Source of the DNA: Sandaracinus amylolyticus
GTDB lineage: Bacteria; Myxococcota_A; Polyangia; Polyangiales; Sandaracinaceae
NCBI RefSeq assembly: GCF_000737325.1
Contig: NZ_CP011125.1
Span: 1,054,001 to 1,118,000, forward strand
Length of the DNA: 64,000 nucleotides
Direction: 5' to 3'
This document shows, piece by piece, positions 4,164 through 21,655 of the stretch. The translations under genes were made by a program, and so were the position numbers. Under the pieces are notes generated by a model that saw only the letters and a list, made by a program, of their open reading frames with translations, searched no databases and was not told where the DNA came from. How positions within the stretch are numbered: position 1 is the stretch's first letter; each line of letters opens with the position of its first letter.

Positions 4164-4179
4164 CGGCACGTGCGCTGCT
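4164..4179 (+). promoter_or_regulatory. Sigma54 (-24/-12) promoter of the 4192 pilin gene
   Basis: CGGCACGTGCGCTGCT has GG and GC exactly 10 bases apart and the GGCAC core of the -24 element. It shares GGCACG-N3-GCTGC with three other promoters in this window, all before Tad/Flp-type genes. The predicted start of transcription is only about two bases before ATG 4192, so the mRNA would be leaderless; the 12.5-kb paralogue has the same geometry. Confidence 0.6.
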
Positions 4180-4191
4180 GAGCGTGGCGCC

Positions 4192-4998
4192 ATGCGACGG
4201 ACCTCTCCTCCATGGACACGAGCGCTCTCGGACACGCGAGGGCAGCTCGGCATCGAACAACTGCTGCTCGTCGGCGCGCTCGCGGTCGCGGGCGCGATCG
4301 GCGTCGCTGGGCTGGGCGCCGCGACGAGCACGTCGTTCGTCGGCGACGCGAGCGCGCCGCTCGACGACAGCCGCGTGCCCGGCGTCGACGACGGGCTCGA
4401 CGGCCGGCCGGGCGCGCCGGATCTCTCGACCGATCTCGGCGATCCCGATCGACGCCGAGACCGCGATCGCGATCGCGATCGAGACCGAGATCGAGACCGC
4501 GATCGAGACCGCTCGCCGGATCGCACCGACTCGCCGCGGTCCGGGCCCGACGATCGCGACGACGCACCACGCGCGGGCCCCGACGACGACCGAGATCGAC
4601 CGCGGACGAACTCCGAGGTCCGTCGCTGGTACAACGATCGGATCGCGCAGATCGCGGAGCGCGATCGCGAGCTCGAGCGACGCGGCGCATCGCTCGAGGA
4701 GCGCGCGCGCGCCGCGTACGACGCGCGCCACGATGCGCGGATGCGCGCGCGGCGCATGATGGGCAACTGCATGTCCGTCGCGTTCCTGCAGCTCCGCGAC
4801 ATCTGCACGTACGGCCGGACGGGCGGACCCTCGTTCGACGATCTCGTGCGGCGCGGTCGAGGGCGCGGCCGCAGCGACGACGACGTGTACCAGGGGATCA
4901 TCGACAGCTCGCAGCGCACGAACGAGCGCTTCAACGAGCACTTCGACGGTCGCCCACGACCGCGACCGGGCGAAGGCGACGAAGGAGAGGCACGATGA
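4192..4998 (+). CDS. Flp-like pilin with long variable C-terminal extension (first of two paralogues)
   Basis: 268 aa. Residues 1-50 look like a class III (Flp/Tad) prepilin: basic leader, SDTRG then cleavage after G17, with Glu at +5 (E22), then a hydrophobic helix (23-46). Next come SFVGDA (48-53), an acidic linker with LDDS and DDGL, and a low-complexity (Asp-Arg)n tract (about 88-108). The unique C-terminal part (about 140-268) is charged and helical, with NCMSVAFLQLRDIC and NERFNEHF; no family recognised. The first ~107 residues align without gaps to the protein at 12535, while the C-termini are unrelated. It overlaps the next gene by ATGA. A pilin carrying an effector or adhesin domain is inferred. 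Confidence 0.75.
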   Translation: MRRTSPPWTRALSDTRGQLGIEQLLLVGALAVAGAIGVAGLGAATSTSFVGDASAPLDDSRVPGVDDGLDGRPGAPDLSTDLGDPDRRRDRDRDRDRDRDRDRDRDRSPDRTDSPRSGPDDRDDAPRAGPDDDRDRPRTNSEVRRWYNDRIAQIAERDRELERRGASLEERARAAYDARHDARMRARRMMGNCMSVAFLQLRDICTYGRTGGPSFDDLVRRGRGRGRSDDDVYQGIIDSSQRTNERFNEHFDGRPRPRPGEGDEGEAR

Positions 4999-5207
4999 GG
5001 AAGTCGGCGTTCGATCGTTGGACCTCCAACGAGATCGTCTGGCGCACGACCGGCGATCTCGACTTTCCGTTCGCCGCCGAGCACGACGGGCACGCGCTGC
5101 GGCTGCGCCTCAACGACTTCCCCGACGAGCCGCTGCACACGCTCTTCGTCGACGGCCAGGACCTCGGCGACTTCGACGACTGGCCGCCGCGCTGGCGCCA
5201 GCCGTGA
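4995..5207 (+). CDS. Small acidic partner protein (possible immunity or chaperone)
   Basis: A 70-aa soluble protein whose ATG overlaps the previous stop (ATGA, 4995-4998), so translation is probably coupled. It is acidic and aromatic (LRLNDFPDEPLHTLFVDG, then DFDDWPPRW), a style familiar from small companion genes of polymorphic toxins; I cannot name a family. Tight coupling to a protein with a variable C-terminal domain makes an immunity or dedicated-chaperone role the simplest guess. A strong hairpin follows at 5214. Confidence 0.65.
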   Translation: MRKSAFDRWTSNEIVWRTTGDLDFPFAAEHDGHALRLRLNDFPDEPLHTLFVDGQDLGDFDDWPPRWRQP

Positions 5208-5213
5208 CGCATC

Positions 5214-5247
5214 CACGACGAGCGGGGCCCGTGCTCCGCTCGTCGTG
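5214..5247 (+). terminator. Hairpin terminator after the 4995 gene
   Basis: A perfect 12-bp stem (CACGACGAGCGG at 5214-5225, complement at 5236-5247) with a 10-base loop, seven bases after the stop at 5207. It separates the pilin/partner pair from the sigma54 region of the next operon. Confidence 0.6.
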
Positions 5248-5258
5248 CTTCGTGCGCA

Positions 5259-5320
5259 TGGGCATCGCGTCGCGATCGCCGTTGCCCACTCGATGCCCAC
5301 CTCGATCGCGACGATGCCCA
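5259..5320 (+). promoter_or_regulatory. Three activator-site repeats (UAS) upstream of the tadE-tadC operon
   Basis: Three exact copies of TGGGCATCG: forward at 5259-5267, reverse at 5291-5299 and 5312-5320. Their centres lie 82, 50 and 29 bp upstream of the sigma54 GG at 5345, separated by 32 and 21 bp (three and two helical turns). This is how enhancer sites for sigma54 activators are usually arranged. The same spacings (32 and 21) recur at 21557-21618. Confidence 0.7.
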
Positions 5321-5343
5321 CCCCGCGATCCGCACGATCCGCG

Positions 5344-5359
5344 TGGCACGCCGGCTGCG
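5344..5359 (+). promoter_or_regulatory. Sigma54 promoter of the tadE-cpaB-tadB-tadC operon
   Basis: TGGCACGCCGGCTGCG matches the -24 consensus TGGCAC fully and has GC at the -12 position, with the required 10-base GG-to-GC spacing. Transcription would begin near 5370, leaving a short leader with GAGGTGCGG before ATG 5384. Confidence 0.75.
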
Positions 5360-5383
5360 AAAGGGCCTCGTCGAGGTGCGGTG

Positions 5384-5917
5384 ATGCGACGAGACGTCGA
5401 ACGCTCGCTGCTGCGCGACACGCGCGGCGCGGCCTATGCCGAGGCGGTCCTGGTGATCCCCGTGTTCGTGCTGCTCGCGGGCGGCGTCGTGTACCTGCAC
5501 GGCGTGCACGCGGCGCGCATGGACGCGTCGCTTCGCGCGCGCGAGTGCGCGTGGGCCTACGCGAACGGCGGCTGCGAGACGCTGCCGCCCGAGTGCCGCG
5601 AGACCGGCGGCGGCGCGGCGGACGACGGCGGTGATCCCGCGCTCGCCGACGCGGTCGCGTCGGTGCAGGAGATGCAGAGCTCCTTCCCGATCCCCGGGCT
5701 CGGCTCCACCGGCGAGGCGATCTTCGGGCGCACCGTGCGCCTCTCCGCGACCGCGACCGCGCAGAGCACGCCGCTCTTCCCGGCGCCGCCCCGCGAGATG
5801 GAGGCGAGCGCGCTCGGCGTGTGCAACGAGCGCGAGCGCACCATCGAGACGGTCGCGCGCGACGTGTTCTGCAGCGCGGTGTCGAGCATCGGCCTCGGAG
5901 GGCCGCTCGGATGCTGA
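5384..5917 (+). CDS. TadE-like minor pilin
   Basis: A 177-aa pseudopilin of a Tad/Flp pilus. The leader ends RDTRG with predicted prepilin-peptidase cleavage after G15, Glu at +5 (E20 in AAYAE), then a hydrophobic helix (AVLVIPVFVLLAGGVVYL), as in TadE/TadF. The periplasmic part has paired cysteines. The ATG at 5384 has GAGGTG upstream and begins the leader. It is the first gene of a six-gene operon (tadE, unknown, cpaB, tadB, tadC, FHA) in which nearly every junction overlaps. It is preceded by a sigma54 promoter and enhancer-like repeats. Confidence 0.85.
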   Translation: MRRDVERSLLRDTRGAAYAEAVLVIPVFVLLAGGVVYLHGVHAARMDASLRARECAWAYANGGCETLPPECRETGGGAADDGGDPALADAVASVQEMQSSFPIPGLGSTGEAIFGRTVRLSATATAQSTPLFPAPPREMEASALGVCNERERTIETVARDVFCSAVSSIGLGGPLGC

Positions 5918-6828
5918 CGCTCGCTGCGCGCGTCGATCGTCGCGGGCTCGCGCGCCTCGCGATCTACCTCGTCGTGGTGTGGGCGATCGGCATCGTGTGG
6001 TGCCTCGGGCGCGTGCGCGCCGACGTCGACGAGGCGCTGCTCGGGCTCGGCGCCGATCTCGCGCGGCTCGATCGCGGCGCGCTGCTCTCGTCGGAGGTGC
6101 TGCAGCTCAACGGCGCGCGTCTCCGCATCACGACCGCGATGCACGACGCGTCGCTCGAGGACGTGCTCGACGGCGCCGACGCGCGATGCCGCGAGCGCGA
6201 CGGACGGCTCGAGGAGCAGCTCCAGGAGACGCTCGGTCGCGAAGGCGAGGCGCTCTCTCCGGTGGTGCGCGCGCAGGGCGAGACCCGCGGCTACGTCGCG
6301 TGCTTCGGCATGCGCATGGAGATGACGCCCGAGAGCGTCGCGCTGCTCGCGCAGCGCTTCCTCGACACCGGCGATCTCACGGCGATCGGCACGCTCCACT
6401 ACGTCTACGCGCGCGCGTCCGAGACCGGCACGCACGTCGTCACGGTCGAGAGCGCGGGGCCGGTGCGGCCGCTCGAGATGTTCCCCGCGGAGGGCGACGC
6501 GCCGGGCGCGGATCCCACGATCGTCTCGCGCCCCGCGGGGCTGCGCAGGTTGCTCTCGGCGAGCGTCGAGGCGCGGCCCTACGGCATCGCCGCGTACTCG
6601 GTGACGCGCGACGCGGACGACGTGCTCGACGAGTACCGCGCCGATCTCGCGCGGCGCGGATGGAACGAGCACACGCACGCGGCGTGGTCCGACGCGCGCG
6701 GTGAAGGATCGATCGTCGCCGAGCGCGACGGTGCGGTGGTCGCGGTGATCGCATCGCGTGACGAGGCCGGCGAGATCGCGATCGCCGTGCTCACGACGCC
6801 CACGAACGAACAGGAGGTCTCCCCGTGA
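5911..6828 (+). CDS. Unknown single-pass membrane protein of the tad operon
   Basis: 305 aa, ATG overlapping the TadE stop by seven bases. One N-terminal membrane helix (about residues 16-36, LAIYLVVVWAIGIVWCLG) is followed by a large domain rich in acidic helices (DVDEALLGLGADLARLD) and later alternating strands (SIVAERDGAVVAVIAS). No class III leader is visible. It sits between TadE and CpaB and ends in an overlap with cpaB, so it is most likely an inner-membrane-anchored periplasmic component of this pilus. Family not recognised. Confidence 0.7.
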   Translation: MLTLAARVDRRGLARLAIYLVVVWAIGIVWCLGRVRADVDEALLGLGADLARLDRGALLSSEVLQLNGARLRITTAMHDASLEDVLDGADARCRERDGRLEEQLQETLGREGEALSPVVRAQGETRGYVACFGMRMEMTPESVALLAQRFLDTGDLTAIGTLHYVYARASETGTHVVTVESAGPVRPLEMFPAEGDAPGADPTIVSRPAGLRRLLSASVEARPYGIAAYSVTRDADDVLDEYRADLARRGWNEHTHAAWSDARGEGSIVAERDGAVVAVIASRDEAGEIAIAVLTTPTNEQEVSP

Positions 6829-7592
6829 AGCTCCGAGCGCTGCTCCTCTCTCTCCTCGTCGCGGGCATCGGCGCCGCGCTCTGCTTCGCCGCGTTCGCGC
6901 GCGTGCGCCGCGAGGCCCAAGGCGGTGAGCCGGTCCGTGTGGTCGCGGTCACGCGCGACCTCGCGCCGGGCGCGGTGCTGACGCGCGACGTGCTCGCGGT
7001 GCGCACGATCCCGCGCGCGTACGTCGAAGAGCGCCACGTGCCCTTCGAGGACACCGAGACCGTCGTGGGGCTGCGCGCGGTGAGCGCGCTGCGCGCCGGC
7101 GAGGCGCTGCTCTGGAACGACGTCGACGACGAGGCGATCGCGGCCGCGCGGCTCGCCGCGGTGATCGGCGAAGGCCGGCGCGCGGTGACGGTCCGCGTGC
7201 ACGCGACCTCGGCGTTCACCGGCCTCTTGCGTCCCGGCGATCGCGTCGACGTGCTGCACTTCGCGCCGCGCCTCGGGAGCGAGGAGCGCGTCACCGCGCA
7301 GCTGCTCGAGAACGTGCTGGTCCTCGCCGTCGCGGGCACGCTCGATCCGAGCTCGCCCTCGCGCTGCGGCGCGACCTCGGCGCAGCAGGTCACGGTCGCG
7401 GCGACCGTCGACGAAGCGCAGCGCCTCGTGCACGCGCAGTCGACCGGCGACCTGCACCTCGTCCTGCGCAACCCCGACGACGTCGAGCCCATGCTCTCGA
7501 TGGGCGATCCCGTGACCGACGCCGACGTGCTCGTCGCGGCGGAGCGACGCCGCCGCCGCGCGCGCAGCGACGTGCCCTCGAGCATCCGCTGA
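6825..7592 (+). CDS. cpaB: CpaB/RcpC pilus assembly protein (SAF domain)
   Basis: 255 aa. The GTG start (6825) overlaps the previous stop (GTGA) and follows a good AGGAGG at 6812-6817. An N-terminal membrane helix (about 4-24) precedes a SAF-type domain (VVAVTRDLAPGAVLTRDVLA, about 38-100) and the RcpC/CpaB region (GDRVDVLHFAPRLG, about 140-230). CpaB proteins sit in the periplasm and link the secretin to the rest of a Tad apparatus. It has the usual length and the usual neighbours. Confidence 0.88.
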   Translation: MKLRALLLSLLVAGIGAALCFAAFARVRREAQGGEPVRVVAVTRDLAPGAVLTRDVLAVRTIPRAYVEERHVPFEDTETVVGLRAVSALRAGEALLWNDVDDEAIAAARLAAVIGEGRRAVTVRVHATSAFTGLLRPGDRVDVLHFAPRLGSEERVTAQLLENVLVLAVAGTLDPSSPSRCGATSAQQVTVAATVDEAQRLVHAQSTGDLHLVLRNPDDVEPMLSMGDPVTDADVLVAAERRRRRARSDVPSSIR

Positions 7593-7605
7593 AGGAGCAA
7601 AGGCG

Positions 7606-8454
7606 ATGGACCGCAACCTCGTGCTCGGTGTCGCCCTGCTCGCGGTCGGGGTCGCGATCGCGACCTACTCGACGCTCGTCGATCCCGACGCGCTCCCCGC
7701 GCGCTGGTGGCGGGCGCGCGAGGCCGCGCTCGCCGGAGATCTCGCGTTCGTGCGCGCGAAGGTCTCGGCGCGGACCGTGCTGATCGCGCAGGCGATCGGC
7801 GTCGTGGGCGCGCTCTCGCTCGCGATGGTGAGCGGACAGCCGCTCTTCGTACTGGTGGTGCCGTTTCTCGTGATCGGGCCAGCGCTGCACCTCCAGAAGG
7901 CGCGCGCCGCGCGCGTCACCGCGGTCGAGAGCGACGTCGAGGCGTGGCTCACCGCGATGGCGAGCTCGCTGCGCACCGACGGATCGATCGGCGGCGCGCT
8001 CGCCTACGCGTCGCGCCTCTCGACCGGCGCGATGTCGGAGGAGCTCGAGGTGCTGCTCGTCGAGTGCGAGCTCGGCGCGACGCTCGACGACGCGCTCCGG
8101 CGCCTCTCCGAGCGCATCCGCAGCCCGATGATCACCGGCGTCGTCGCGCTGCTGCTGGTGGGCCGCCGCACCGGTGGCGAGCTGCCCGCGCTGCTCGAGA
8201 GCAACGCGCGACAGCTGCGCGAGATCGCGCGCCTCGAGGGCGTGATCCGCAGCAAGACCGCGGAGGGCAAGGGCCAGATCTGGGTGCTCGGCGCGCTGCC
8301 GCTCGCCATCGCGCTCGCGCTGCGCGCGCTGAGCCCGGGGTACTTCGACCCCCTCTTCGAAGGGCTCATCGGCGGGATCGTGCTCGCGCTCGCGATCGCG
8401 CTCTGGCTCGCGGCGATCTTCACGGCGCGCTCGGTGCTCGCGCTGGAGGTGTGA
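7606..8454 (+). CDS. tadB: TadB-like inner-membrane platform protein
   Basis: 282 aa with hydrophobic segments near residues 6-26, 62-100 and two C-terminal helices (about 225-275), flanking a type II secretion system F (GspF-like) cytoplasmic domain with EVDAWLTAMASSLRT-like helices (here DVEAWLTAMASSLRTDGS) and a GGELPALLE turn. TadB and TadC form the membrane platform on which the TadA ATPase acts. It is 13 bases after cpaB, with AAGGAGC before the ATG. TadA itself is not in this window. Confidence 0.85.
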   Translation: MDRNLVLGVALLAVGVAIATYSTLVDPDALPARWWRAREAALAGDLAFVRAKVSARTVLIAQAIGVVGALSLAMVSGQPLFVLVVPFLVIGPALHLQKARAARVTAVESDVEAWLTAMASSLRTDGSIGGALAYASRLSTGAMSEELEVLLVECELGATLDDALRRLSERIRSPMITGVVALLLVGRRTGGELPALLESNARQLREIARLEGVIRSKTAEGKGQIWVLGALPLAIALALRALSPGYFDPLFEGLIGGIVLALAIALWLAAIFTARSVLALEV

Positions 8455-8458
8455 CGTG

Positions 8459-9361
8459 ATGACGACCTCGCTCGCATGGCTGACCTACGGGCTCGCGCTC
8501 GCCGCGATCGGCTTCGTGCTCGCGTCGATGCTCGTCGCCTCGGAGCCGCCGCTCGCCGACGCGCGCGCCGGACATCGCGGGATCCTCCGCGCGCGCAGCA
8601 TCGCGGCCGGTGGGCTCGTGCGGTGGATCGATCCGATCGTGCGCCACGTCGCGGCATGGCTGCCGTCGTCGCGCCTGGGATCGCTCGGGGTGCGCGCCGA
8701 AGAAGCGCTGGCGCGCGCGGGCTCGCCACACGGATGGGTCGCGTCGGAGCTCGTCGCCGCGTCGATCGTGCTCTCCGCGATCGCCACGCTCGGCGCGCTG
8801 CTCGCCTGCGCGATGGTGCCGCGCGTGCCGATCGCGCTGGTGCCCCTCGCGACGATGGTCGGTGCGGCGCATCCGCTCTCGATCCTGCGCGAGGCGCGCG
8901 CGCATCGCGAGCGCACGATCACCCGCGCGCTCCCGGGATGTGTCGAGGTCATGGCGCTCTGCATGAGCGCGGGCATGGACTTCGTCGGCGCGGTGCGCAC
9001 GACGCTCTCCGACGCGGTCGCGGCGGGCACGCCGCTCCACGACGAGCTCACGCGCATGCTCGAGGAGCTGCAGCTCGGGTCGACGCGCGGCGCTGCGCTG
9101 GCGCGCCTCGGAGAGCGCGTGCCGACGCGCCCGGTGCGCGATCTCGTGAACGCGGCGCTGCGCGCGGAGGAGAAGGGGAGCCCGCTCGCCGACGCGCTCG
9201 CGGTGCAGGCGTCGGTGCTGCGGCAGCGCCGCGGCGTCGCGGTGGAAGAAGCGGCGGCACGCGCGAGCCTCGCGCTCCTCGCACCGCTCACGTTGGTGTT
9301 CGGCGCCATCATGCTGCTCGTTCTCGGGCCGATGGCGCTCTCGATCGCGGAGGGACTCTGA
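8459..9361 (+). CDS. tadC: TadC-like inner-membrane platform protein
   Basis: 300 aa, companion of TadB: N-terminal membrane helix, two central helices (about 95-140), a GspF domain with LPGCVEVMALCMSAGMDF and a C-terminal hydrophobic helix (LTLVFGAIMLLVLGPMAL). ATG 8459 is used; a GTG three bases earlier is in frame. The last base of its TGA stop is the A of the next gene's ATG (TGATG). Confidence 0.85.
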   Translation: MTTSLAWLTYGLALAAIGFVLASMLVASEPPLADARAGHRGILRARSIAAGGLVRWIDPIVRHVAAWLPSSRLGSLGVRAEEALARAGSPHGWVASELVAASIVLSAIATLGALLACAMVPRVPIALVPLATMVGAAHPLSILREARAHRERTITRALPGCVEVMALCMSAGMDFVGAVRTTLSDAVAAGTPLHDELTRMLEELQLGSTRGAALARLGERVPTRPVRDLVNAALRAEEKGSPLADALAVQASVLRQRRGVAVEEAAARASLALLAPLTLVFGAIMLLVLGPMALSIAEGL

Positions 9362-10221
9362 TGCGCATCCGAGCTCGGGCTCACGTGGACTACGAGGACG
9401 GCACGCGCGACACGTTCGAGCTCGCGCGCTCGCCGATGACGATCGGGCGCGCGCCGACGTGCGACGCCGCGCTGATCGGAGCGCGACGTGTCGAGTGGGA
9501 GCACGCGCGCATCGAGCTCACGCGCGACGCGGTGTGCCTCACGCCGCTCGCGACGCCGGACGAGACGCCGGTGCGCACGCCGTATGGACGCGCGGTCGCG
9601 CTCGGCGATGCGCGCATCACGTTCGAGCGCGTCGAGGGGCCGGGCATGCGCGCGTACTGGATGCGCGGGCTCTCGGTCGCGGTCGCGACGGTGATCGTCG
9701 CGTCGCTCGGCACGCTCGTGATCGGGCGGCGCGGTGCGCGCGCGGCGGCGGAGGAGGACACGCCGAGCGCGTCGCGCCCTGCGCTCTTCGACGACGACCA
9801 CGTCGCGTCGTGCGATCAGGAGGAGCGCGCGGGGCGGCGCACGCTCGAGCTCTCGCTGGCGGCGCGCGCGCTGCGCGAGCAACGCGCGTTCGACGTGCAG
9901 GACGGAGTGCGCGCCGTCGAGACCTTCGCGCGCGCGGCGGCGTGCGCCGAGCACGTGGGCGACGCGCTCGGCGCGGACGCGCTGCGCGCCGAGGGCGACG
10001 CGCTGCGCATGGAGCTCGAAGAGCGCGCGGCGAGGTTGATCGCGCGGGTGCGGCGAGCGCGACAGCGCGAGGACGTGGAGGCGGAGCGCACCGCGCTGCG
10101 CTCGCTGCTCGACCTGCTCTCGCATCGCGACGACGCGCTGACTCAGGAGTACGTCGCGCGGGCGCGCACGCTCGAGGCCGAGGCGTCGCGGACCTCGCGC
10201 TTCCCGCGGCTCGGGCGCTGA
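9361..10221 (+). CDS. FHA-domain membrane protein of the tad operon
   Basis: 286 aa. Residues 1-98 form a forkhead-associated (FHA) domain: MTIGRAPTCDAAL supplies the GR turn, but the usual SxxH is replaced by EWEHARIEL, so phospho-threonine binding may be weakened. A membrane helix (about 105-122, VAVATVIVASLGTLVIG) leads to a helical, TPR-like C-terminal region (about 145-280), presumably periplasmic. The start overlaps tadC (TGATG). Its place at the operon end suggests it ties the pilus to kinase signalling, which fits the kinases at 12391 and 13474. Confidence 0.75.
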   Translation: MRIRARAHVDYEDGTRDTFELARSPMTIGRAPTCDAALIGARRVEWEHARIELTRDAVCLTPLATPDETPVRTPYGRAVALGDARITFERVEGPGMRAYWMRGLSVAVATVIVASLGTLVIGRRGARAAAEEDTPSASRPALFDDDHVASCDQEERAGRRTLELSLAARALREQRAFDVQDGVRAVETFARAAACAEHVGDALGADALRAEGDALRMELEERAARLIARVRRARQREDVEAERTALRSLLDLLSHRDDALTQEYVARARTLEAEASRTSRFPRLGR

Positions 10222-10228
10222 CGTTCGC

Positions 10229-12391
10229 TCAGCGTGTGAGGGCGACCGCGAGGATCACGATCGCGATCGACACGCCGATCGCGATCGTGATCACACGCCG
10301 CGCGCGGAGCGCGTCCTCGGAGGCACGCACCAGCGCGCGCGCGTCCTCCGGCCACGCAGGCGGCGCGCCTCCCGCCGCCGCGAGCTCGTCGAGCTCGGCG
10401 CGCGTGAGCAAGAGCGCGCGCGCACGACCGCTGCGCGCCCAGCGCTCCGCGGCCGCGAGCACGGTGCGGTGCACGTCGGGCTGGGTCGCGATCCACTCGG
10501 CGAGGCGAGGCCAGGCGCGCACGAGGCCCGGGTGCGCCAGCGTGATGGTCTCGCCGTCGCGCGCGAGGATTCGCTCGTCGACGAGGCGCTCGACGAGGGC
10601 ACTGGCCGCATCGCCGAGCCCCGCGACGAGCCGCTCGCGCGCGATCGTCCCCGCGTCCGCGGTGCGTCGCAGCACGGCGCGCGCAAGCCCGAGGTCGGCG
10701 TCGGAGAGCCGCGCGACCCACGCCTCGGCGTGCGCCGCGAGCGCGCCGACCGCGCCGCCGATCGCGTCGTAGTCCGCGCGGGTGAGCGACGTGCCTTCGC
10801 GGCGCTCCCACAATCGTTGGAGCACCAACGAGACGATCGGCAGGCTCGCGCTGCTCGCGGCCGCGCTCGTCTCCTCCACGAGCACGTCGACGATGGTCGC
10901 GTCCTCGGCCTCCGCGCGATCGAGCGAGCGCGTGATCGCTTCGTGCAGCGCGGCGCCCGCGAGCGGCCGGACGCGCGTCGTCGCGGTGCTCGGGTCGCCG
11001 GTGATCGTCTCGTCGCGCGCGACCACGACGATGCGCACCGGCTCCGCGGGATCGCCCACCGCGCGCGCGAGCGCTGCGCCCAGCAGGCGCGTCTCGTCGC
11101 GCTCGCTCGACGGATCGTCGAGCGGATCGATCACCAGCAGGACGCGCTTGCGCAGCGCGGTCGCGAGCCGTCCGAGCGCGAGACCGAGCGCGCCCGGAGA
11201 CGCGCGCAGCCGCGCCTCGAGGTCACGATCGTCGCGCCCCTCCGAGGCGTCGGCGATCGCGCGCGCGATGCTCGCGAACGGGCTCGGCCCCGGCTCGACC
11301 ACGAGCACGTGCCAGCGCTGCGTCGCCTCCAGCCTCGGCACGAGCCCTGCGCGCACGAGCGACGTCTTGCCCACGCCCGCGGGACCGACGACGCGCGTCA
11401 GCGGCTCGCGCTCGACCCGCGCGACGAGCTCGTCGATCTCGCGCTCCCGCCCGCGGAAGACGTCGGCGTCGCGCCGCTCGTAGGCGGCCAGGCCGCGGTA
11501 CGGCTCGCGCGTCGCGAGCGTCGGCGCGAGGCGCGCGAGCTCGGTCGCGATCTCCGCTGCGCTCGGTCGCGCTCCGGGATCGCGCGACAGGCATCGGAGC
11601 ACGAGCGCCGAGAGCTCCGGGGGCACGCGCGACGGGAGCGGCGGGAACGGCTGCTCGCCGTCGAGGCGCGCCATCAGCGCGACGGGATCGAGGCCCGCGA
11701 GCGGCTGCTTCCGCGCGAGCATCTCGTAGAGCACGAGCCCGATCGCCCACGAGTCGGTGCCGCGCGCGTCGCGCCCTTCCCACTGCTCGGGCGCCATGTA
11801 CGCCGGCGTGCCCGCGATCGACGCGTCGGGCGAGCGCGAGATCGCGGAAGGGCGCAGATCGAAGCGCGTGAGATCGTCGGGCGCGACCGGGCCGTCCTCC
11901 TCGACGAGCCGTGCGATGCCGAAGTCGAGCACGCGCACGCGATCGTCGTGTCCCACCACGACGTTGCTCGGCTTCAGATCGCGATGGAGCAGCCCGACGT
12001 CGTGCGCCGCCGCGATCGCGCGCGCGATGCCCTCGGCGAGCTGCGCCGCGCGGCCGATGGTCGGGGGATCGGCGCGCAGCAGCTGGTGCAGCGTGCGGCC
12101 GTGCACGTACTCGAGCGCGACGTAGGGACGACCGCCGTGCTCGCCGACGTCGTAGACCGTGATGACGTTCGGGTGCGAGAGCGACGCGGTCGCGCGCGCC
12201 TCGAACGTGAACTGCGCCCGCGCGCGCGCCGAGCCCACGAGCGTGCGCGAGAGGAATTTCAGCGCGGCGAGGCGCCCGAGCTCGACGTGCCGCGCGAGGT
12301 AGACGCGACCCATGCCGCCCGACGCGATGGGACGGAGCACGCGGTACGGCCCGACGATCGCTCCGACCTCGGAGCCCTCCGCGACGCTCAT
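10229..12391 (-). CDS. Ser/Thr kinase fused to an nSTAND1 ATPase domain, C-terminal membrane anchor
   Basis: 720 aa. The Hanks-type kinase domain spans about residues 15-285: glycine loop ASGGMGRV, K45 in ALKFL, HRDLKPSN at 136-143, DFG at 156-158, and GTPAYMAPEQ. From 297 comes the novel-STAND-1 signature: EPYRGLAAYERRDADVFRGR and then Walker A GPAGVGKT (336-343), followed by Walker B-like VLLVIDPLDD. STAND domains are signal-gated NTPase switches. A hydrophobic helix (about 698-716) ends the protein. It is divergent from the pilin gene at 12535; a link between the two is inferred from position. Confidence 0.88.
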   Translation of the reverse strand: MSVAEGSEVGAIVGPYRVLRPIASGGMGRVYLARHVELGRLAALKFLSRTLVGSARARAQFTFEARATASLSHPNVITVYDVGEHGGRPYVALEYVHGRTLHQLLRADPPTIGRAAQLAEGIARAIAAAHDVGLLHRDLKPSNVVVGHDDRVRVLDFGIARLVEEDGPVAPDDLTRFDLRPSAISRSPDASIAGTPAYMAPEQWEGRDARGTDSWAIGLVLYEMLARKQPLAGLDPVALMARLDGEQPFPPLPSRVPPELSALVLRCLSRDPGARPSAAEIATELARLAPTLATREPYRGLAAYERRDADVFRGREREIDELVARVEREPLTRVVGPAGVGKTSLVRAGLVPRLEATQRWHVLVVEPGPSPFASIARAIADASEGRDDRDLEARLRASPGALGLALGRLATALRKRVLLVIDPLDDPSSERDETRLLGAALARAVGDPAEPVRIVVVARDETITGDPSTATTRVRPLAGAALHEAITRSLDRAEAEDATIVDVLVEETSAAASSASLPIVSLVLQRLWERREGTSLTRADYDAIGGAVGALAAHAEAWVARLSDADLGLARAVLRRTADAGTIARERLVAGLGDAASALVERLVDERILARDGETITLAHPGLVRAWPRLAEWIATQPDVHRTVLAAAERWARSGRARALLLTRAELDELAAAGGAPPAWPEDARALVRASEDALRARRVITIAIGVSIAIVILAVALTR

Positions 12392-12419
12392 GCGGCGCGA
12401 GGATGCCGCGTCGATGAAC

Positions 12420-12482
12420 GCGTGCCCAGGGGGTCATGCGCATGCGCATGGCCGATGCCCGCCGCGATGCGCATGCGCATCG
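12420..12482 (+). promoter_or_regulatory. Degenerate activator sites with twin 14-bp palindromes upstream of the 12535 pilin gene
   Basis: Relative to the sigma54 GG at 12507, matches to TGGGCATCG are centred at 29 (TGCGCATCG, 12474-12482, one mismatch), 50 (CGATGCCCG, 12453-12461, reverse, one mismatch) and about 83 (core TGCCCA, 12423-12428). These are the same positions as the exact sites at the 5.3-kb promoter. Two copies of the self-complementary ATGCGCATGCGCAT (12436-12449 and 12467-12480) overlap the set, 31 bp apart. Confidence 0.5.
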
Positions 12483-12505
12483 CTCGTCCGGGCTCGCGGA
12501 TCGCG

Positions 12506-12521
12506 CGGCACGCTCGCTGCT
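12506..12521 (+). promoter_or_regulatory. Sigma54 promoter of the 12535 pilin gene
   Basis: CGGCACGCTCGCTGCT has GG-N10-GC spacing and shares GGCACG-N3-GCTGC with the promoters at 4164, 5344 and 21522. The ATG is 15 bases past the GC, almost the same as at 4192, implying a leaderless or near-leaderless mRNA. Confidence 0.65.
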
Positions 12522-12534
12522 CCGCGCGTCATCG

Positions 12535-13464
12535 ATGGACACCGACCACACGAAGCCACGCTCGCTCCGACGCGACACGCGCGGAGCGATGAGCACGCAG
12601 CAGATCATCATCACGACGTTCGTCGCCGTCGCAGGCGTGACGACGATGGGCTCGCTCGGCTTCGCATCGAGCGAGGCGTTCGTCGGCGAGGCCGGCGAGC
12701 TCGACGACTCGGCGATCGCGGGGCTCGACGACGGGCTCGGCGCGCCCGACCTCGACGGCGCGTTCGTCCCACCCGGCGTTCCCGATCCCGATCGTCGTCG
12801 CGACCGAGATCGCGATCGTGATCGAGATCGAGATCGTGATCGCGACGGCCCGCGCGATCGTGGGCGCGACGCCGGTGTCGATCGCGGCGCGCCCGACGCC
12901 GGCGCCGAGGAGATGGTCTGCAGCGCGCGCGACCGTCGCAACCCGCGCAGTCGACCCGCGAACGGCAGCCAGGGCCAGCAGGTGCCGACGGTGAGCGACT
13001 ACTACAACCCCGCGGCGATCGGGCACCACCCCGGGCAGCCGAACTTCTACTCGGTGCCGACGCGCAACGGCAGCGGACCGAGCGTGTGGGTCTCGACGAT
13101 CCCGATCGATCAGTCGGACTTCGAGGACATCGTCGACGGCTCTCCGGGCCGCACGTACGTGCTCAGCGGGACGCACGGCTCGGAGGACGGCGAAGGGCCC
13201 GGCGCGTGTCGCAGCAACGGCATGCCCGCGAGCGGCGCGAACGGCATCCACGAGGGTCAATTCCTCGACGAGGATCGCCAGCGCTGGTCCGGCACGCCGG
13301 GGGTGGTCGTCGAGGACGCGTCGAGGCTCTCGCAGCGCGCGGTCGCGAACCGCATCCGCCAGCTCGTGCGCAACCTCGGGCCGAACGATCGGATCGTGCT
13401 CGCGTGGTGCTACAGCGAGCGCAACACCGGGCTCACCAGCATCCTCGAGAACGGTTGTCTGTAG
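12535..13464 (+). CDS. Flp-like pilin with a caspase-like C-terminal domain (second paralogue)
   Basis: 309 aa. Residues 1-107 match the 4192 protein without gaps: RDTRG ending at G17, a hydrophobic helix (Q22 at +5 rather than Glu), AFVGEA at 48-53, LDDS at 57-60, and DPDRRRD then (DR)n from 84. The C-terminal domain (about 150-309) differs completely. It has a strand ending in His-Gly (YVLSGTHGSED, H214), a strand/helix unit, and a strand ending in Cys (RIVLAWCYSER, C292). That His-Gly...Cys order is seen in caspase-, clostripain- and CHAT-like proteases and in the Stv domain; assignment is inference. It is followed after nine bases by a kinase gene. Confidence 0.75.
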   Translation: MDTDHTKPRSLRRDTRGAMSTQQIIITTFVAVAGVTTMGSLGFASSEAFVGEAGELDDSAIAGLDDGLGAPDLDGAFVPPGVPDPDRRRDRDRDRDRDRDRDRDGPRDRGRDAGVDRGAPDAGAEEMVCSARDRRNPRSRPANGSQGQQVPTVSDYYNPAAIGHHPGQPNFYSVPTRNGSGPSVWVSTIPIDQSDFEDIVDGSPGRTYVLSGTHGSEDGEGPGACRSNGMPASGANGIHEGQFLDEDRQRWSGTPGVVVEDASRLSQRAVANRIRQLVRNLGPNDRIVLAWCYSERNTGLTSILENGCL

Positions 13465-13473
13465 AGTAGGTGG

Positions 13474-14418
13474 GTGCACGAACGGCTCGTTCCCGGCGCG
13501 ACGCTCGGCGGCTACGTCGTCGAGCGTCATCTCGCGCGTGGCGGCATGGCGGACGTCTATCTCGCGCGCGATCGCGCGAGCGGTGCGCACGTCGCGCTCA
13601 AGGTGATCGCGGCCGACGTCGAGGTGGTGCAGCGCGAGCTCGAGCACGAGGCGCGCGCCGCGACGTGCGTGCGTCATCCGAACGTGGCCGCGACCATCGC
13701 GGCGGGTGTCGACGCGGGACGTGCGTTCCTCGTCATGGAGCACGTCGACGGCGTCTCGGTGCGCGATCTGCTCGGCGCGCTGACCCGCGTCGTGGTGCCG
13801 ATCGCGGTGCGGCTCCACGTCGTCGCGGGCGCGGCGCGCGGCCTCGACGCGGCGCACGAGGCGCGCGACGCGCGTGGCGCACCGCTCGGTCTCGTCCACC
13901 GCGACGTGAGCCCGTCGAACCTGCTGCTCGCGCGCAGCGGCGAGGTCCGGGTGATCGACTTCGGCATCGCGAAGACGCGCGAGCGCGCGACGCAGACTCG
14001 GCTCGGCGTGCTCAAGGGGAAGCTCTCGTACATGTCGCCCGAGCAGGCCGCGGGGGCGCGGCTCGACGCGCGCAGCGATCTCTTCTCGCTCGGGATCGTG
14101 CTCCACGAGCTGCTCTCGGAGCGGAAGCTCTTCGCGGCCGCGAGCCCTGCGGAGCTGCGCCGTCTCGTGGTGCGCGCGGAGATCCCGCCGCTCCCTGCGC
14201 ACGTCCCCGCGCCGATCGCGGAGCTCGTCGCCGCGATGCTGCAGCGCGATCCCGCATCACGCCCTGCGAGCGCGAGAGAGATCGCGGAGACGCTCGAGCG
14301 CGCGCTACGAGGCGACGAAGCGGCGCAGCTCGCGCCGATCGTGGACGCGCTGGTCGATGGGCGCGCACACGAGGACGCGCTCTACGACGCCGCGACGCGG
14401 ATCGACGAGCTCGACTGA
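13474..14418 (+). CDS. Soluble Ser/Thr protein kinase
   Basis: 314 aa, GTG start nine bases after the pilin stop, so it is probably co-transcribed from the sigma54 promoter at 12506. It is a complete Hanks-type kinase domain: glycine loop ARGGMADV, K43 in ALKVI, HRDVSPSN at 142-149 (the variant loop usual in myxobacteria), DFG at 162-164, LKGKLSYMSPEQ. There is almost nothing beyond the kinase domain: about 50 acidic residues and no membrane helix. Likely substrates or readers are the nearby FHA proteins (9361, 17546); that is inference. Confidence 0.88.
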   Translation: MHERLVPGATLGGYVVERHLARGGMADVYLARDRASGAHVALKVIAADVEVVQRELEHEARAATCVRHPNVAATIAAGVDAGRAFLVMEHVDGVSVRDLLGALTRVVVPIAVRLHVVAGAARGLDAAHEARDARGAPLGLVHRDVSPSNLLLARSGEVRVIDFGIAKTRERATQTRLGVLKGKLSYMSPEQAAGARLDARSDLFSLGIVLHELLSERKLFAAASPAELRRLVVRAEIPPLPAHVPAPIAELVAAMLQRDPASRPASAREIAETLERALRGDEAAQLAPIVDALVDGRAHEDALYDAATRIDELD

Positions 14419-16058: not shown

Positions 16059-17546
16059 TCACTCGTGCGCGTCGTCCTCGCTCATCCACCCGAACGTGAT
16101 CAGGAATCGCCGCGTCTGCCGCCGCGAGTACCCGAGCGCGCGCGCGATGCGCGAGACGTTCGTGCCGTGCTCCTCGACGAGACCTGCGAGCTCCGCGCGA
16201 TCGGGCGGCGGACGCTGGGGACGCGACTTCTTCTTGCGCAGCGGCGCGACGATCGCGGGCGGGCTCGGCGCGATCGTCGGCGCGACGAGCACCACGGCCT
16301 CGCTCTCCATCGTCGTCGCCGTGCTCACCGCGACGCGGCGCGCCGACAGCGCGGGCACGTCCAGGCGATCGACGATCGTCGCGAGCGTCAGCGGCCCCTC
16401 CGCCGCGCGGATGCGCAGCTCGGTCGCGACGCGGATCAGCTCGCGCACGTTGAACGGCCACGGATGCAGCAGCAGCGCCTCCGCGAGATCCGCGTCGAGC
16501 TCGGACGTCGATCGACCGAGCGTGCGCTCGACGAGCGCGAGCACGTCCTCGCGCCGCTCGCGCAGCGGCGGCGTGCGCAGCACGACACCGGCGAGGCGCG
16601 AGTAGAGATCGCCGCGGAACCGACCCTCGTCGACCGCGGTGCGCAGATCGCGATGCGTCGCGGCGACGATCGTCGCCTGCGCCGCGAACGTCTTGGTCGA
16701 TCCGACCGGCGTCACCGCGCGCTCTTCGAGCGCGCGCAGCAGCTTCGCCTGGATCGCGAGCGGCATCTCGCCGATCTCGTCGAGGAAGAGCGTGCCTCCG
16801 TGCGCCTGTCGCAGCACGCCGGGGAAGTCGCTGCGCGCGCCGGTGAACGCGCCCGCGACGTGCCCGAAGAGCTGGCTCTCTGCGAGCGCCTCCGGGATCG
16901 CGCCGCAGTTGAGCGCGACGAACGCGCCGCTGCGCCCGCTCGTGTCGTGCAGCGCGCGCGCGACGAGCTCCTTGCCGGTGCCGCTCTCGCCGAGCACGAG
17001 GATCGGGACGTCGTGGGGCGCGACGGTGCCGATCGCGCCGCGCAACCGCTGCATGCTCGGCGCGGTGCCGAGGAGGGCGGCGACGCTCGCGTCGATCGCG
17101 CCGCGCGCGCGGAGTCGCACCACGAAGAGCGAGTCCCCGGTGCGGATCACGTCACCATCCGTTGCGATCGCGCGCTGCACGCGCGCGCCCATCACGAACG
17201 TGCCGTTGGTGCTCGTGTCCTCGACGCGCACCCGATCGCCCTCGGGCACGAGCCGCACGTGCTTGCGCGAGATGCGCGCGTCGGGGATCGCGTAGACGCC
17301 CGGCTCACGCGCGCGCCCGATCACCAGCGCGTCGAGCAGTGGCATCGTCACCGCGCTCGAGAGCCCCGGCCCGTGCACGTGCACCAGCGAGAGCTCCGCG
17401 CTCGTCGTCGCGATCGCCTCGGCTCCCGCCTGGGCGGTGACTTCCTCGTCCCACGCCATCCGTCGCGTGCGGCCGCGTCGATCGCGGAGCCCACACTGCG
17501 GACAGAGTAGGCGGCGCACGCTCGCATCTGCAACCTCGAGATCCAC
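16059..17546 (-). CDS. FHA-type sigma54-dependent activator at the end of the tad operon
   Basis: 495 aa from GTG 17546 (GGAAAGG ten bases upstream; start inferred; ATG 17459 would give 466 aa and drop LLCPQCG). Domains in order: FHA ([27 protein letters not shown]), AAA+ sigma54-interaction domain (Walker A GESGTGKE, the sigma54-contacting GAFTGA loop, LFLDEIGEM), and a C-terminal Fis-type helix-turn-helix ([18 protein letters not shown]). FHA activators respond to threonine phosphorylation. It begins 19 bases after the tadG stop, which makes it the best candidate for binding the TGGGCATCG sites near the four sigma54 promoters. Confidence 0.9.
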
Positions 17547-17565
17547 GATGCGCGCCCTTTCCGCG

Positions 17566-19299
17566 TCAATGAGCGATGATCGTGCCCCACGCCTGCAGCG
17601 GGCCGAGCACCGCGGTGCAGTCGAGCCCGGGCACCGCGGAGCACGCCGAGTCGAGCATGCCGATCGCGGGCACGTGCACGCGCCGCATCCGCGCGCGCCA
17701 CCGCATGTTCCACATCCAGTCGGGGCGATCCGCGAGATCGGTCGACGGGTAGTACATCTCGGCCTGCGCAATCGACATGCGACCGAGATCGGCGAGCGGC
17801 AGATCACCGCCTGCCTCGAGGCTCCCACCGCCCGCCACCGCGACGCCGCGCGCCGCGCGATCCGACGGAGTCTCGCCCATCACGAGGATGCGCATCTGGA
17901 ACGGCTCGCCGCCGAGCTCGACGTCGAACCCACCGCTCTCGAACGCGACGCGCTGCGACGCCATCCCGGTGCGATCCTCGAGCATCCCGGGGTCCTGCTC
18001 GATCAGCGTCTGCTCCTCTTCGACCAGGCACGCGTGCACGTGCCGCACGACCTCGATCTCGATCACGCGCGCCGCGTCCCGCAACTCCGGCAGCATGCTC
18101 GCGGTGAAGCGCGGCACCTCGGTGATCACGCACGCAGGTCCGCGCGGATCTTCGCTCCATCGACCATCGCACAGGCGCTCGTCGCGCTCGCTGCGCTCGG
18201 AGGAGAGCACCTCGTCGTGATCGCTCGGATCGTCGGAGTCGAGCGCGAGATCGTCGTCGGTGTGTCGCACTCGGCCGTCCTCGGCCCAGTAGGCGCGGCG
18301 ACGTCGCTCGATCTGGTAGACGTAGGACTGGATCCCCGGCGTGGTGCGGCACTCGTGGCGCGCGTCCTCGGCGCGCGTGAGGCAGTCGTCGTGGCCCGCG
18401 GCGCCCTCGGCGGGACACGCGCCGGTGGTCTGATCGAAGAGCGCGTTCAGCTCGGCATCACCGGCGTCGAGACAGCCCGACGTGAGCTGCGATCCCAGGC
18501 ACTCCGACGTGCTCTCGATCGACGGGATCCATCGCTCCACCGAGTACGTGAGTTTCGGCGGCACGCCGCCCTCGCCCGCGCCGCAGAACCACGGCGAGAA
18601 CGCGGCCACGAGCGCCTCGATCGCGTCGCCGATCGCGTCCTGCACCGCGTCGGGCAGCACGCCGATCTTGTCGAAGGGCAGCATCACGATCTCGCCGACC
18701 ACGCGACCGGCGCGACCGCAGAGGCGCTCGAAGTCGTCGTCCTCGGTGGGCAGCTCGATGCGCGGCGGCAGCGGCACCCCGGTCTCGGGGATGTCGTCGA
18801 ACGCGTCGTCCTGGACCACGGCGTTCGCACGCGCCCATGCAGCCGCGGGCACGGCGCGTCGGATCGCAGCCGCGGTGCGATTGCCGATGCGCAGCACCGC
18901 GAACACCGGCCCGCGCAGCGCGGCCTCGGCCTGGAAGAGCGCGGTCTGCACCGTGGTCAGCGGCGCGAGCGCGACGAGCGACGCGCCGAACGTCGGGATC
19001 GCGAGCGCGAGCACGATCGCGATCGCCACGGCGACGACCGTGATCAGCACCTTGAGCATCACGAGCACGGCGAGCGCGCCCGCCATCACGAGGTTCACGA
19101 GCACGAGCAGGTTCATCCCGCGCGCGTGCAACACCGCGGCGGCGAACGCGCTCGCATCGGCCGCGTCCTGCATCGTCTCGCGATGACGGATCGCCTCGCC
19201 GACCCCGACCACGTAGAAGACGAGCCCGGTCGCGACGAGCGCCGCGAACAGGCCGAGCACGGTGATCGCGCCGCGCGTGTCGGAGAAACACGATTTCAT
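17566..19299 (-). CDS. TadG-like pilus-associated protein
   Basis: 577 aa. The leader SDTRG ends at G10 and is followed by a hydrophobic helix (AITVLGLFAALVATGLVFYVVG) without Glu at +5, as in TadG. RHRETMQDAADASAFAAAV is the motif with which TadG/TadE-type proteins begin their periplasmic part. Further membrane-like segments occur near 60-110. The large C-terminal region has many cysteines and acidic stretches. GAGGAG precedes ATG 19299. It lies in the operon flp-flp-tadV-tadE-tadG-activator; TadG is a structural or assembly factor at the pilus base. Confidence 0.78.
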   Translation of the reverse strand: MKSCFSDTRGAITVLGLFAALVATGLVFYVVGVGEAIRHRETMQDAADASAFAAAVLHARGMNLLVLVNLVMAGALAVLVMLKVLITVVAVAIAIVLALAIPTFGASLVALAPLTTVQTALFQAEAALRGPVFAVLRIGNRTAAAIRRAVPAAAWARANAVVQDDAFDDIPETGVPLPPRIELPTEDDDFERLCGRAGRVVGEIVMLPFDKIGVLPDAVQDAIGDAIEALVAAFSPWFCGAGEGGVPPKLTYSVERWIPSIESTSECLGSQLTSGCLDAGDAELNALFDQTTGACPAEGAAGHDDCLTRAEDARHECRTTPGIQSYVYQIERRRRAYWAEDGRVRHTDDDLALDSDDPSDHDEVLSSERSERDERLCDGRWSEDPRGPACVITEVPRFTASMLPELRDAARVIEIEVVRHVHACLVEEEQTLIEQDPGMLEDRTGMASQRVAFESGGFDVELGGEPFQMRILVMGETPSDRAARGVAVAGGGSLEAGGDLPLADLGRMSIAQAEMYYPSTDLADRPDWMWNMRWRARMRRVHVPAIGMLDSACSAVPGLDCTAVLGPLQAWGTIIAH

Positions 19300-20481: not shown

Positions 20482-20988
20482 TCAGGTGATGAGCGCGAGC
20501 ACGAGCCCGCACAGGATCGCCGGGCCGAGCCGCACGCTCGTGCGCGCGTCGTCCTCGTGCGCTTCGTCGCTGCGCACCACTGCGCGGACCGCGACGCGCG
20601 CCGTGCGCGTCAGCATGCGTCCGAGCGTTCCTTCGTACGCCTGGCGCCCGAGCACGTAGAGCATTCCGACCACGAACGCCCACCACTGGGCCTCGACGCC
20701 GATGCTCGGGCCGAGCATCGCGCCCAGCGCCGCGAAGAGCTTCACGTCGCCGCCGCCCATCGCGCCCTTGCGGAAGAGCAGGTACGGCACGAGCCCCGCT
20801 GCGAGCGTGCCGAGCGCGGCCGTGAGCAGCGCGTCGACTCCCCCGCTCACGAGGTGCGCGATCAGCGCGAGGGCGAGCGCGGGCAGCGTGATCGCGTTGG
20901 GGATGCGCCCGGTGCGCGCGTCGGTCCACGCGCCGAGCGCCGCGACGGCGGTCGCCGCGATCGCGGCGACCGTGCCCGCCGCGATCAT
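20482..20988 (-). CDS. TadV/CpaA-type prepilin peptidase
   Basis: 168 aa, aspartyl prepilin peptidase of the short (A24) type without the N-methyltransferase domain. The first catalytic Asp is in AWTDARTGRIPN and the second in MGGGDVKLFAALG (GxGD class). About five membrane segments. It cleaves class III leaders after glycine, as found on both Flp pilins, the TadE proteins and probably the two long-tailed pilins here. Its ATG overlaps the flp stop (ATGA type, 20986-20990). Confidence 0.92.
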   Translation of the reverse strand: MIAAGTVAAIAATAVAALGAWTDARTGRIPNAITLPALALALIAHLVSGGVDALLTAALGTLAAGLVPYLLFRKGAMGGGDVKLFAALGAMLGPSIGVEAQWWAFVVGMLYVLGRQAYEGTLGRMLTRTARVAVRAVVRSDEAHEDDARTSVRLGPAILCGLVLALIT

Positions 20989-21197
20989 CACGCGCCTCCG
21001 CCGCCCGCCGCGCCGATCTGCTCGGTCTGCGACTCGAGCACCGCGACGATCTGATCGCCGAACGCGGTCCACGCCGCGATGCCGGCGATGACGACCAGGC
21101 CGACGATCAGGATGTACTCGGTGAACCCGGCCCCTTCGACGTCCTTGTGGAGCGAGCGGAACGAGCGCGAGCGCGAGGTGACGTTGCGGGTCTTCAT
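20988..21197 (-). CDS. flp: Flp-type major pilin
   Basis: 69 aa, a classic Flp prepilin: basic leader ending EG, cleavage after G22, AGFTEY with Glu at +5, then the hydrophobic helix ILIVGLVVIAGIAAWTAFG and a short tail. Start 21197 is preferred over 21212 because GGAGG is eight bases upstream of it. Probably the main fibre subunit. It overlaps the prepilin peptidase start. Confidence 0.9.
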   Translation of the reverse strand: MKTRNVTSRSRSFRSLHKDVEGAGFTEYILIVGLVVIAGIAAWTAFGDQIVAVLESQTEQIGAAGGGGA

Positions 21198-21293
21198 GGG
21201 ATCGTCCTCCATCGGTTCGAGAGCACACGACTACGGAGACGCGTCGCTCGGACGAGCGCGCGAGCGAGCCAGTCGGCGACTGCCACGCTGGCG

Positions 21294-21482
21294 TCAGGGA
21301 AAGGGCAACAGCAGCAGCGCGCGGGTGAAGCGATAGGCGCGCAGCATCGGCTCGCCGAGGCTCACCGCGGCGAGCGCGGCGACGAGCGCGAAGGTGCCCA
21401 CGGCGAAGAGGTACTCGACGAACACTCCACCGCGCGCGTCGTCCACCAACCGAGCGAGCGTGCGAGTCGAGCGCGTCGTCAT
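21294..21482 (-). CDS. Flp-type pilin, first gene of the operon
   Basis: 62 aa: the leader ends DARG, cleavage after G18, GVFVEY with Glu at +5, helix LFAVGTFALVAALAAVSLG, short C-terminus. ATG 21482 has AGGAGG six bases upstream and follows the sigma54 promoter at 21522-21507. It is a second, divergent Flp, 96 bases ahead of the first; it may be a minor or alternative pilin. Confidence 0.85.
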   Translation of the reverse strand: MTTRSTRTLARLVDDARGGVFVEYLFAVGTFALVAALAAVSLGEPMLRAYRFTRALLLLPFP

Positions 21483-21506
21483 CGTGACCTCCTGCGTGCT
21501 CCCTTG

Positions 21507-21522
21507 AGCAGCGCGCGTGCCA
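21507..21522 (-). promoter_or_regulatory. Sigma54 promoter of the flp operon
   Basis: On the minus strand TGGCACGCGCGCTGCT has a full TGGCAC, GG-N10-GC spacing, and differs from the 5344 promoter at only three positions. Transcription would begin near 21496, just before AGGAGG and ATG 21482. Confidence 0.75.
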
Positions 21523-21556
21523 CCTCCGAATGCCGCGATCGCGCCGCGCAGGGGGG

Positions 21557-21618
21557 TGGGCATCGCGGCCCGTGACGCCGATGCGCAGTGGGCATCGCGG
21601 AGGCGCGCTCGATGCCCA
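21557..21618 (-). promoter_or_regulatory. Three activator-site repeats upstream of the flp operon
   Basis: Exact TGGGCATCG copies at 21557-21565 and 21589-21597 and an inverted copy at 21610-21618, centred 40, 72 and 93 bp upstream of the promoter GG. The spacings are 32 and 21 bp, as at the 5.3-kb promoter. Offsets from the 29-bp site are close to whole helical turns. Confidence 0.7.
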
Positions 21619-21655
21619 CGTGGGCGCCGTGGCTCGTGCTACCGTGCCCGCAGGC

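Follow-up and report, generated by a model that had tools for sequence, protein, structure and literature searches.

Flp-type prepilin modules head polymorphic toxin-like proteins in Sandaracinus amylolyticus and related genera: candidate cargo of the Tad pilus

Two proteins, P0001 and P0002, are encoded in a 64,000-nucleotide stretch of the closed genome of Sandaracinus amylolyticus (10,327,335 bases; the stretch, G000:C1:1054001-1118000, is called the window here). They and their relatives are best explained as polymorphic toxins that carry a Flp (Tad) prepilin as the N-terminal trafficking module and are delivered by way of a Tad pilus, an explanation that we consider likely. One component of it, the polymorphic-effector plan of a fixed module with swapped, predictedly toxic tails, is well supported by sequence comparison. 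With rather less assurance we lean towards the conclusion that Tad pili serve as a delivery route of their own for such toxins, each toxin being one of the pilin subunits and reaching the prey as the pilus extends.

Re-reading of the sequence returned both reading frames as first described. Each protein starts with a Flp-like class III leader module of about 80 residues (residues 1 to ~82), consisting of a short charged N-terminus, a glycine at position -1 and a hydrophobic helix after it, and continues with an Asp-Arg linker. The two modules are 48% identical over 65 aa (E 3e-17), and a search of the bacterium's own genome revealed a third protein with this module at 7.8756 Mb, 6.8 Mb from the window (54% identity, E 1.4e-25), whose module shares 60% (E 4e-21) and 52% (E 8e-26) identity with those of P0001 and P0002, respectively. 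When the tails of the three were compared with each other nothing rose above noise (best E ~0.05), in agreement with the preliminary description of this DNA, which had proposed a shared N-terminal module with unrelated C-terminal tails. The motif positions given there (G17, FVG at 49, DPDRRRD at 84-90) were recovered in both proteins, and the N-terminal alignment is gapless as claimed apart from LDDS, which occupies residues 57-60 in P0001 and 56-59 in P0002 owing to a compensated one-residue indel. Orthologues of all three proteins, with the same tails, are kept in the sister species (G008), where the locus has the same order; given the 89-94% DNA identity of that locus, this conservation is weak evidence.

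Profile comparison places the module among the Flp pilins. With a profile of the three modules, the next best match was the genome's own true Flp pilin (E 2.7e-5), and profile-profile comparison with 12 short true Flp pilins gave a probability of 95.7 and an E-value of 9e-9 over 45 gapless columns. Among 36 Flp-headed proteins, the three of the window genus included, Gly-1 and Glu+5, the latter a Flp trait usually followed by Tyr, are present in 35, and a glycine at about +25 in most. At 268-383 aa, as against the ~50-80 aa usual for Flp pilins, the window-genus proteins are too long to count as such and are thus classed as pilin-headed toxins; Pfam Flp_Fap matches to pilin-headed proteins fall below its cut-off only.

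The tail of P0001 has no Pfam name and matched nothing among plasmid, phage or PDB sequences, and its all-helical model (pLDDT 72) found no fold match. In a search of 377 Myxococcota genomes, homologues were found in 12 others (39-45% identity, E < 1e-17). One of them ends a VgrG (Gp5_trimer_C 56.6 bits), and others stand behind lipoprotein-type leaders or end large multi-domain polymorphic proteins, so that a single toxin domain occurs behind several trafficking modules, as is characteristic of polymorphic toxins. The gene that follows P0001 is predicted to encode its immunity protein: in five other loci a P0001-type toxin domain is directly followed by a homologue of this gene product (38-48% identity; E-values, computed in a database of 22 loci, of 1e-11 to 1e-16), and the protein is 94% identical in the sister species. 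At the level of sequence, this adjacency is a classical toxin-immunity signature.

P0002 ends in a Tox-HDC domain (PF15656; Pfam 26.2 bits, cut-off 21), in which the H, D/N, C signature is represented by His214, Cys292 and, as a candidate, Asp257; the fold model of this tail was weak (pLDDT 51), gave only weak alpha/beta matches and was not used. The tail of the third paralogue is a Peptidase_M91 domain (77 bits, cut-off 25) with an HELVH motif. On these assignments each of the three window-genus proteins has a predicted toxin domain as its tail, either one already recognised or one traced here for the first time. In the 2012 census of polymorphic toxins (PMC3482391), Tox-HDC was predicted to act as a thiol peptidase of caspase type or as a transglutaminase, and usually lacks an immunity gene, and Peptidase_M91, the HopH1/NleD family, is listed as a polymorphic-toxin domain as well. 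It could be argued that these two tails are directed at eukaryotic hosts and that P0001 alone is antibacterial, which would be compatible with our explanation of delivery. The HopH1/NleD kinship of M91 and the frequency of Tox-HDC in pathogens (PMC3482391) favor this, and no immunity gene was seen after P0002 or the M91 gene. However, P0001 and its immunity gene belong to the same promoter group, and both families also occur in bacterial polymorphic toxins; we regard host-directed action as somewhat unlikely.

The preliminary description had proposed searching genomes for the module and its C-terminal domains, and such a search does yield variable toxin tails in other genera of the order. Searching 183 genomes of the order with a Flp-type profile led to long Flp-headed proteins, and in at least four other genera a Flp pilin N-terminus is followed by a Gly/Ser linker and then by a toxin-type tail, of pre-toxin, PT-HINT, RNase, deaminase, ADP-ribosyl-cyclase-like or lipase-like type. 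Three genomes of one genus (G154-156, 12-13.6 Mb) hold several dozen Flp-headed matches, many of them long-tailed. Tails above the Pfam cut-off (bits/cut-off) comprise PT-HINT in many proteins, a ribonuclease (40.1/24) and a YwqJ deaminase (28.6/25.9), and tails near it an ADP-ribosyl cyclase (23.6/25), a GH-E nuclease (23.6/25) and a Lipase_3 (19.4/22). Downstream of the RNase tail of L143, whose type of RNase domain was scored in the close relative L138, lies a barstar gene (84.8 bits, cut-off 23.4); another barstar gene stands beside L134 (34.1 bits) and a barstar-like gene, just below cut-off at 22.2, beside L141. An Imm74 gene (66.5 bits, cut-off 27.1) adjoins a cyclase-like tail, and ankyrin-repeat lipoprotein genes adjoin lipase-like tails. 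Another genus (G117) has four Flp-headed PT-HINT proteins, one with a terminal YwqJ deaminase (39.7/25.9), another family (G010) has four Flp-headed proteins with Ser/Gly/Ala linkers and pre-toxin-like regions, and a third family (G031) has one with pre-toxin, PT-HINT and, by eye, a deaminase-like tail. PT-HINT/pre-toxin domains are present in the relatives and absent from the three window-genus proteins. A hidden Markov model (HMM) built from short Flp pilins only matched all 33 proteins from outside the window genus at E <= 8e-7, against 0.67 for the best of 3,600 shuffled decoys, and chance resemblance of the leaders was rejected on this basis. Taken together, the Pfam toxin domains, the cognate immunity gene and the recurrence of this plan, along with PT-HINT and immunity genes, in further families of the order strongly support the earlier proposal of a fixed trafficking module with swapped tails. 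Among 85k named genomes, a gene-pattern scan with the module found no relatives, and a Flp+HINT profile found only PT-HINT behind RHS or other N-termini, or short Flp pilins; the survey thus rests on genomes of the same phylum.

Two lines of evidence connect the window-genus proteins with Tad genes. First, P0001 precedes a TadE-like/CpaB/TadB/TadC operon, and a pilin operon at 16-21.5 kb holds genes for a Flp pilin, a minor pilin, a prepilin peptidase, TadE- and TadG-like proteins and a sigma54 activator. Secondly, -24/-12 sites (GG-N10-GC) of sigma54 type precede P0001, P0002, the unlinked M91 gene, the tadE operon and the pilin operon, which bears out the claim that P0001 and P0002 share this promoter type with tad genes. 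The pattern GGCACGN5TGCT occurs three times in the window against 0.19 expected: P0001 and P0002 each have it 27-28 nt upstream, and it also precedes the pilin operon at 21482; only the third occurrence is independent, since the pattern was derived from the first two sites. The element GTGGGCATC is found 8 times in the window against 0.48 expected, with six copies at sigma54-type promoters; these repeats cluster at three of the promoters, and similar repeats are present at the M91 gene.

In the mechanism that we propose, Sec would insert the toxin into the inner membrane by its pilin helix, prepilin peptidase would cut after Gly17, and the Tad machine would draw the pilin helix into the pilus, where the protein would probably be a minor subunit or sit at the tip. 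Borne on the disordered linker, the toxic tail would then pass the secretin and, upon contact, meet or enter a neighbouring cell. In the relatives a self-cutting PT-HINT domain may free the tail, an immunity gene, where present, would protect the producer, and in the window genus sigma54 would switch on toxins and Tad genes together. The predicted cleavage leaves the hydrophobic helix on the toxin, so that the tail could exit the membrane only via the filament or after a further cut, which favors the view that the toxin travels as one of the pilins, in all likelihood a minor or tip-located one. The earlier suggestion that these are cargo domains on a Tad pilus is plausible, with support from promoters and homology. 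The sequences themselves establish homologous modules, toxin and immunity domains, exchanged tails and a common promoter type; cleavage, incorporation into a pilus, delivery and toxicity are what we infer.

These interpretations should be weighed against several observations. Passage of a folded tail of 100-200 residues through the Tad secretin is unproven, and cleavage, pilus incorporation and transfer of pilin-headed toxins are predictions. The window-genus module has diverged: with single sequences in the Flp-only HMM, P0002 scored E 3e-4, whereas P0001 (E 1.0) and the M91 protein (E 0.05) missed; P0002 has Gln instead of Glu at +5, and Tyr+6 is missing in all three proteins. No immunity gene is evident among the reading frames neighbouring P0002 or the M91 gene, an absence tempered beside P0002 by the usual lack of such a gene with Tox-HDC noted above (PMC3482391). 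The preliminary description had placed the toxin genes beside tad genes, which applies to P0001; P0002 lies between two kinase genes, and the M91 gene is not beside tad genes among the flanking reading frames scanned. The toxin genes of G154-156, too, are dispersed round the chromosome and not beside tad genes. The idea was to be abandoned if the module occurred in many genomes at a distance from tad genes and always with one C-terminus; modules are indeed often far from tad, but their C-termini vary, as in orphan polymorphic toxins. Finally, the sigma54 pattern shows no enrichment across the genome (103, with 181 for the reversed control), and in G154-156 almost no toxin gene has such a site ahead of it. 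On these two grounds we rejected a general sigma54 rule, and co-regulation is consequently supported in the window genus only.

Part of this list would also suit true polymorphic toxins whose Flp-like N-terminus is a mere Sec signal-anchor that holds them in the inner membrane, with exit by a type II secretion system, HINT/PrsW-type release or lysis and no Tad pilus. Besides the divergence of the window-genus modules and the dispersed genes of G154-156, this alternative draws on a PrsW protease gene (126 bits) downstream of the Flp-headed PT-HINT toxin of G031 (L170, downstream of 2526), PrsW being a known release system of polymorphic toxins (PMC3482391), and on other PT-HINT toxins in the same genomes that have non-Flp transmembrane helices. 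A plain anchor, however, would have no need of the specific prepilin signature that is kept, nor does it account for the promoter type that the window-genus genes share with Tad operons, and we judge it unlikely. That the proteins are instead specialised minor pilins or tip adhesins whose tails recognise or dock onto prey, in the manner of the variable domains exposed on the minor-pilin tips of the Myxococcus xanthus Kil pilus (PMC12075869), would fit genes sitting among tad genes in the window, but appears highly improbable, because the tails are toxin domains of enzyme type, such as M91 with its HELVH, a barnase-type RNase and a deaminase, and have immunity partners, while an adhesin has no use for barstar.

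Pilin-headed proteins share with the polymorphic toxin systems of Zhang et al. (2012) the fixed N-terminal module, the linker or PT-HINT, the exchangeable C-terminal toxin and the adjacent immunity gene, as well as toxin and immunity families (PMC3482391). They differ in the module: the available text of that census names TpsA, VgrG/PAAR, WXG/LXG, PVC, SpvB, PrsW, MuF and signal peptides and no pilin, nor does it use the words pilin, pilus or prepilin. One sentence in a J Biol Chem paper of 2025 (PMC12605009) gives Flp pilins as partners of an ADP-ribosyl cyclase toxin domain, with the myxobacterium Pendulispora albinea in the example list for that domain; this is a passing mention that neither defines a class nor offers a survey, a map of immunity genes or a connection with Tad. 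A description of a pilin-headed toxin class was not found in the open-access literature (subscription papers and preprints lay outside the scope), and these proteins may be viewed as polymorphic toxins with a pilin trafficking module that is new to that class. The Kil system of M. xanthus, of the same phylum, combines a Tad pilus, minor pilins with variable domains and contact killing; as the preliminary description held, this Tad-like apparatus is required for the killing, and the accessible parts of the reports leave its toxins unidentified and do not describe Kil tips as toxin fusions (PMC8460266, PMC12075869). The likeness concerns the Tad type. P0001-tail relatives behind lipoprotein-type leaders recall SitA of myxobacteria, likewise a polymorphic toxin family with a fixed leader, which is delivered by outer-membrane exchange and not by a pilus (PMC5562445). 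Evolved VgrG effectors of type VI systems also fuse part of a delivery machine to a toxin, as in the P0001-tail homologue on a VgrG, with a phage-tail spike in place of a pilin.

If Tad delivery is true, it would add a further class to the secretion routes listed for polymorphic toxins in 2012, the pilin module joining the short list of N-terminal modules that route them, and would provide candidates for the effectors with which predatory myxobacteria kill on contact in a Tad-dependent way. The hybrids suggest that enzymes can be subunits of type IV filaments and be carried by them, and that predatory soil bacteria load poisons onto or through Tad pili to kill cells. Their recognisable catalytic tails and antidotes make the question of the contact-killing toxins directly testable.

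Table 1. Features of the window, in window positions; bits are Pfam scores.
Feature	Position	Strand	Remarks
Upstream repeats GTGGGCACC / GTGGGCATC before P0001	4131..4161	+	candidate activator sites
-24/-12 sigma54-type promoter of P0001	4165..4179	+	GGCACGTGCGCTGCT; conserved in sister species
P0001	4192..4998	+	Flp-like class III leader module (res 1-82), Asp-Arg linker, helical C-terminal toxin domain (res ~136-254)
Predicted immunity protein of P0001	4995..5207	+	70 aa; start codon overlaps P0001 stop (ATGA)
Two GATGCCCAC repeats upstream of tadE-like operon	5292..5321	-	
-24/-12 sigma54-type promoter of tad operon	5344..5358	+	TGGCACGCCGGCTGC
TadE-like minor pilin	5384..5917	+	class III leader (RDTRG|AAYAE); TadE 17.7 bits, below cut-off 22.9
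RcpC/CpaB	6825..7592	+	86.7 bits
TadB-like platform protein (T2SSF)	7606..8454	+	41.9 bits
TadC-like platform protein (T2SSF)	8456..9361	+	59.6 bits
Variant upstream palindrome GATGCGCATGCGCATC before P0002	12466..12481	+	
-24/-12 sigma54-type promoter of P0002	12507..12521	+	GGCACGCTCGCTGCT
P0002	12535..13464	+	Flp-like module, Asp-Arg linker, Tox-HDC domain (res 197-300); candidate residues His214, Asp257, Cys292
Sigma54 activator with FHA domain	16059..17828	-	candidate regulator of regulon; 205 bits; 5' end of reading frame probably too long
TadG-like protein	17566..19299	-	21.9 bits, cut-off 22.3
Prepilin peptidase (A24)	20482..20985	-	start approximate; 70.2 bits in longer reading frame 20482-21747
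Flp major pilin	20988..21197	-	GAGFTEYILIVGLVVIAG
Minor pilin, first gene of pilin operon	21294..21482	-	
-24/-12 sigma54-type promoter of pilin operon	21507..21521	-	GGCACGCGCGCTGCT
Three GTGGGCATC repeats upstream of pilin operon	21556..21619	.	

If the -24/-12 sites are real, the P0001, P0002 and M91 transcripts would start 2-3 nt before the ATG and be leaderless (4178-4192, 12520-12535), and the tadE and pilin operons would have 14-nt leaders, that of the pilin operon with AGGAGG. A further GTGGGCATC lies at 22130, ~220 bases before a DUF4874/DUF4832 gene (22356-23861). The kinase genes flanking P0002 encode a protein kinase fused to nSTAND1 (10229-12391, -) and, 9 nt downstream, a Ser/Thr kinase (13474-14418, +) that is kept in the sister species at 83% identity.

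Among the Flp-headed PT-HINT proteins of G117, L260 and L261 have tails that gave no Pfam match above cut-off and show, by eye, HG...ACxSG, like the Tox-HDC/caspase-like layout of P0002. Long Flp-headed proteins of other families with a Gly/Ala linker and a C-terminal transmembrane helix were set aside as not toxin-like. In L115, L119, L120, L122, L125, L244, L245, L248, L249 and L253 the Flp helix is followed by a Gly/Ala-rich linker and the transmembrane helix, and the C-terminal end is basic or proline-rich; at three loci of this group a long exported-looking protein comes next. G154:C1:9400205-9411537 (-), partly covered by L100, holds a tandem array of ~15 near-identical short Flp pilin genes (65-aa frames, KLVKDEKGATTVEYGLLLVAILLIVAGAFKALG...).

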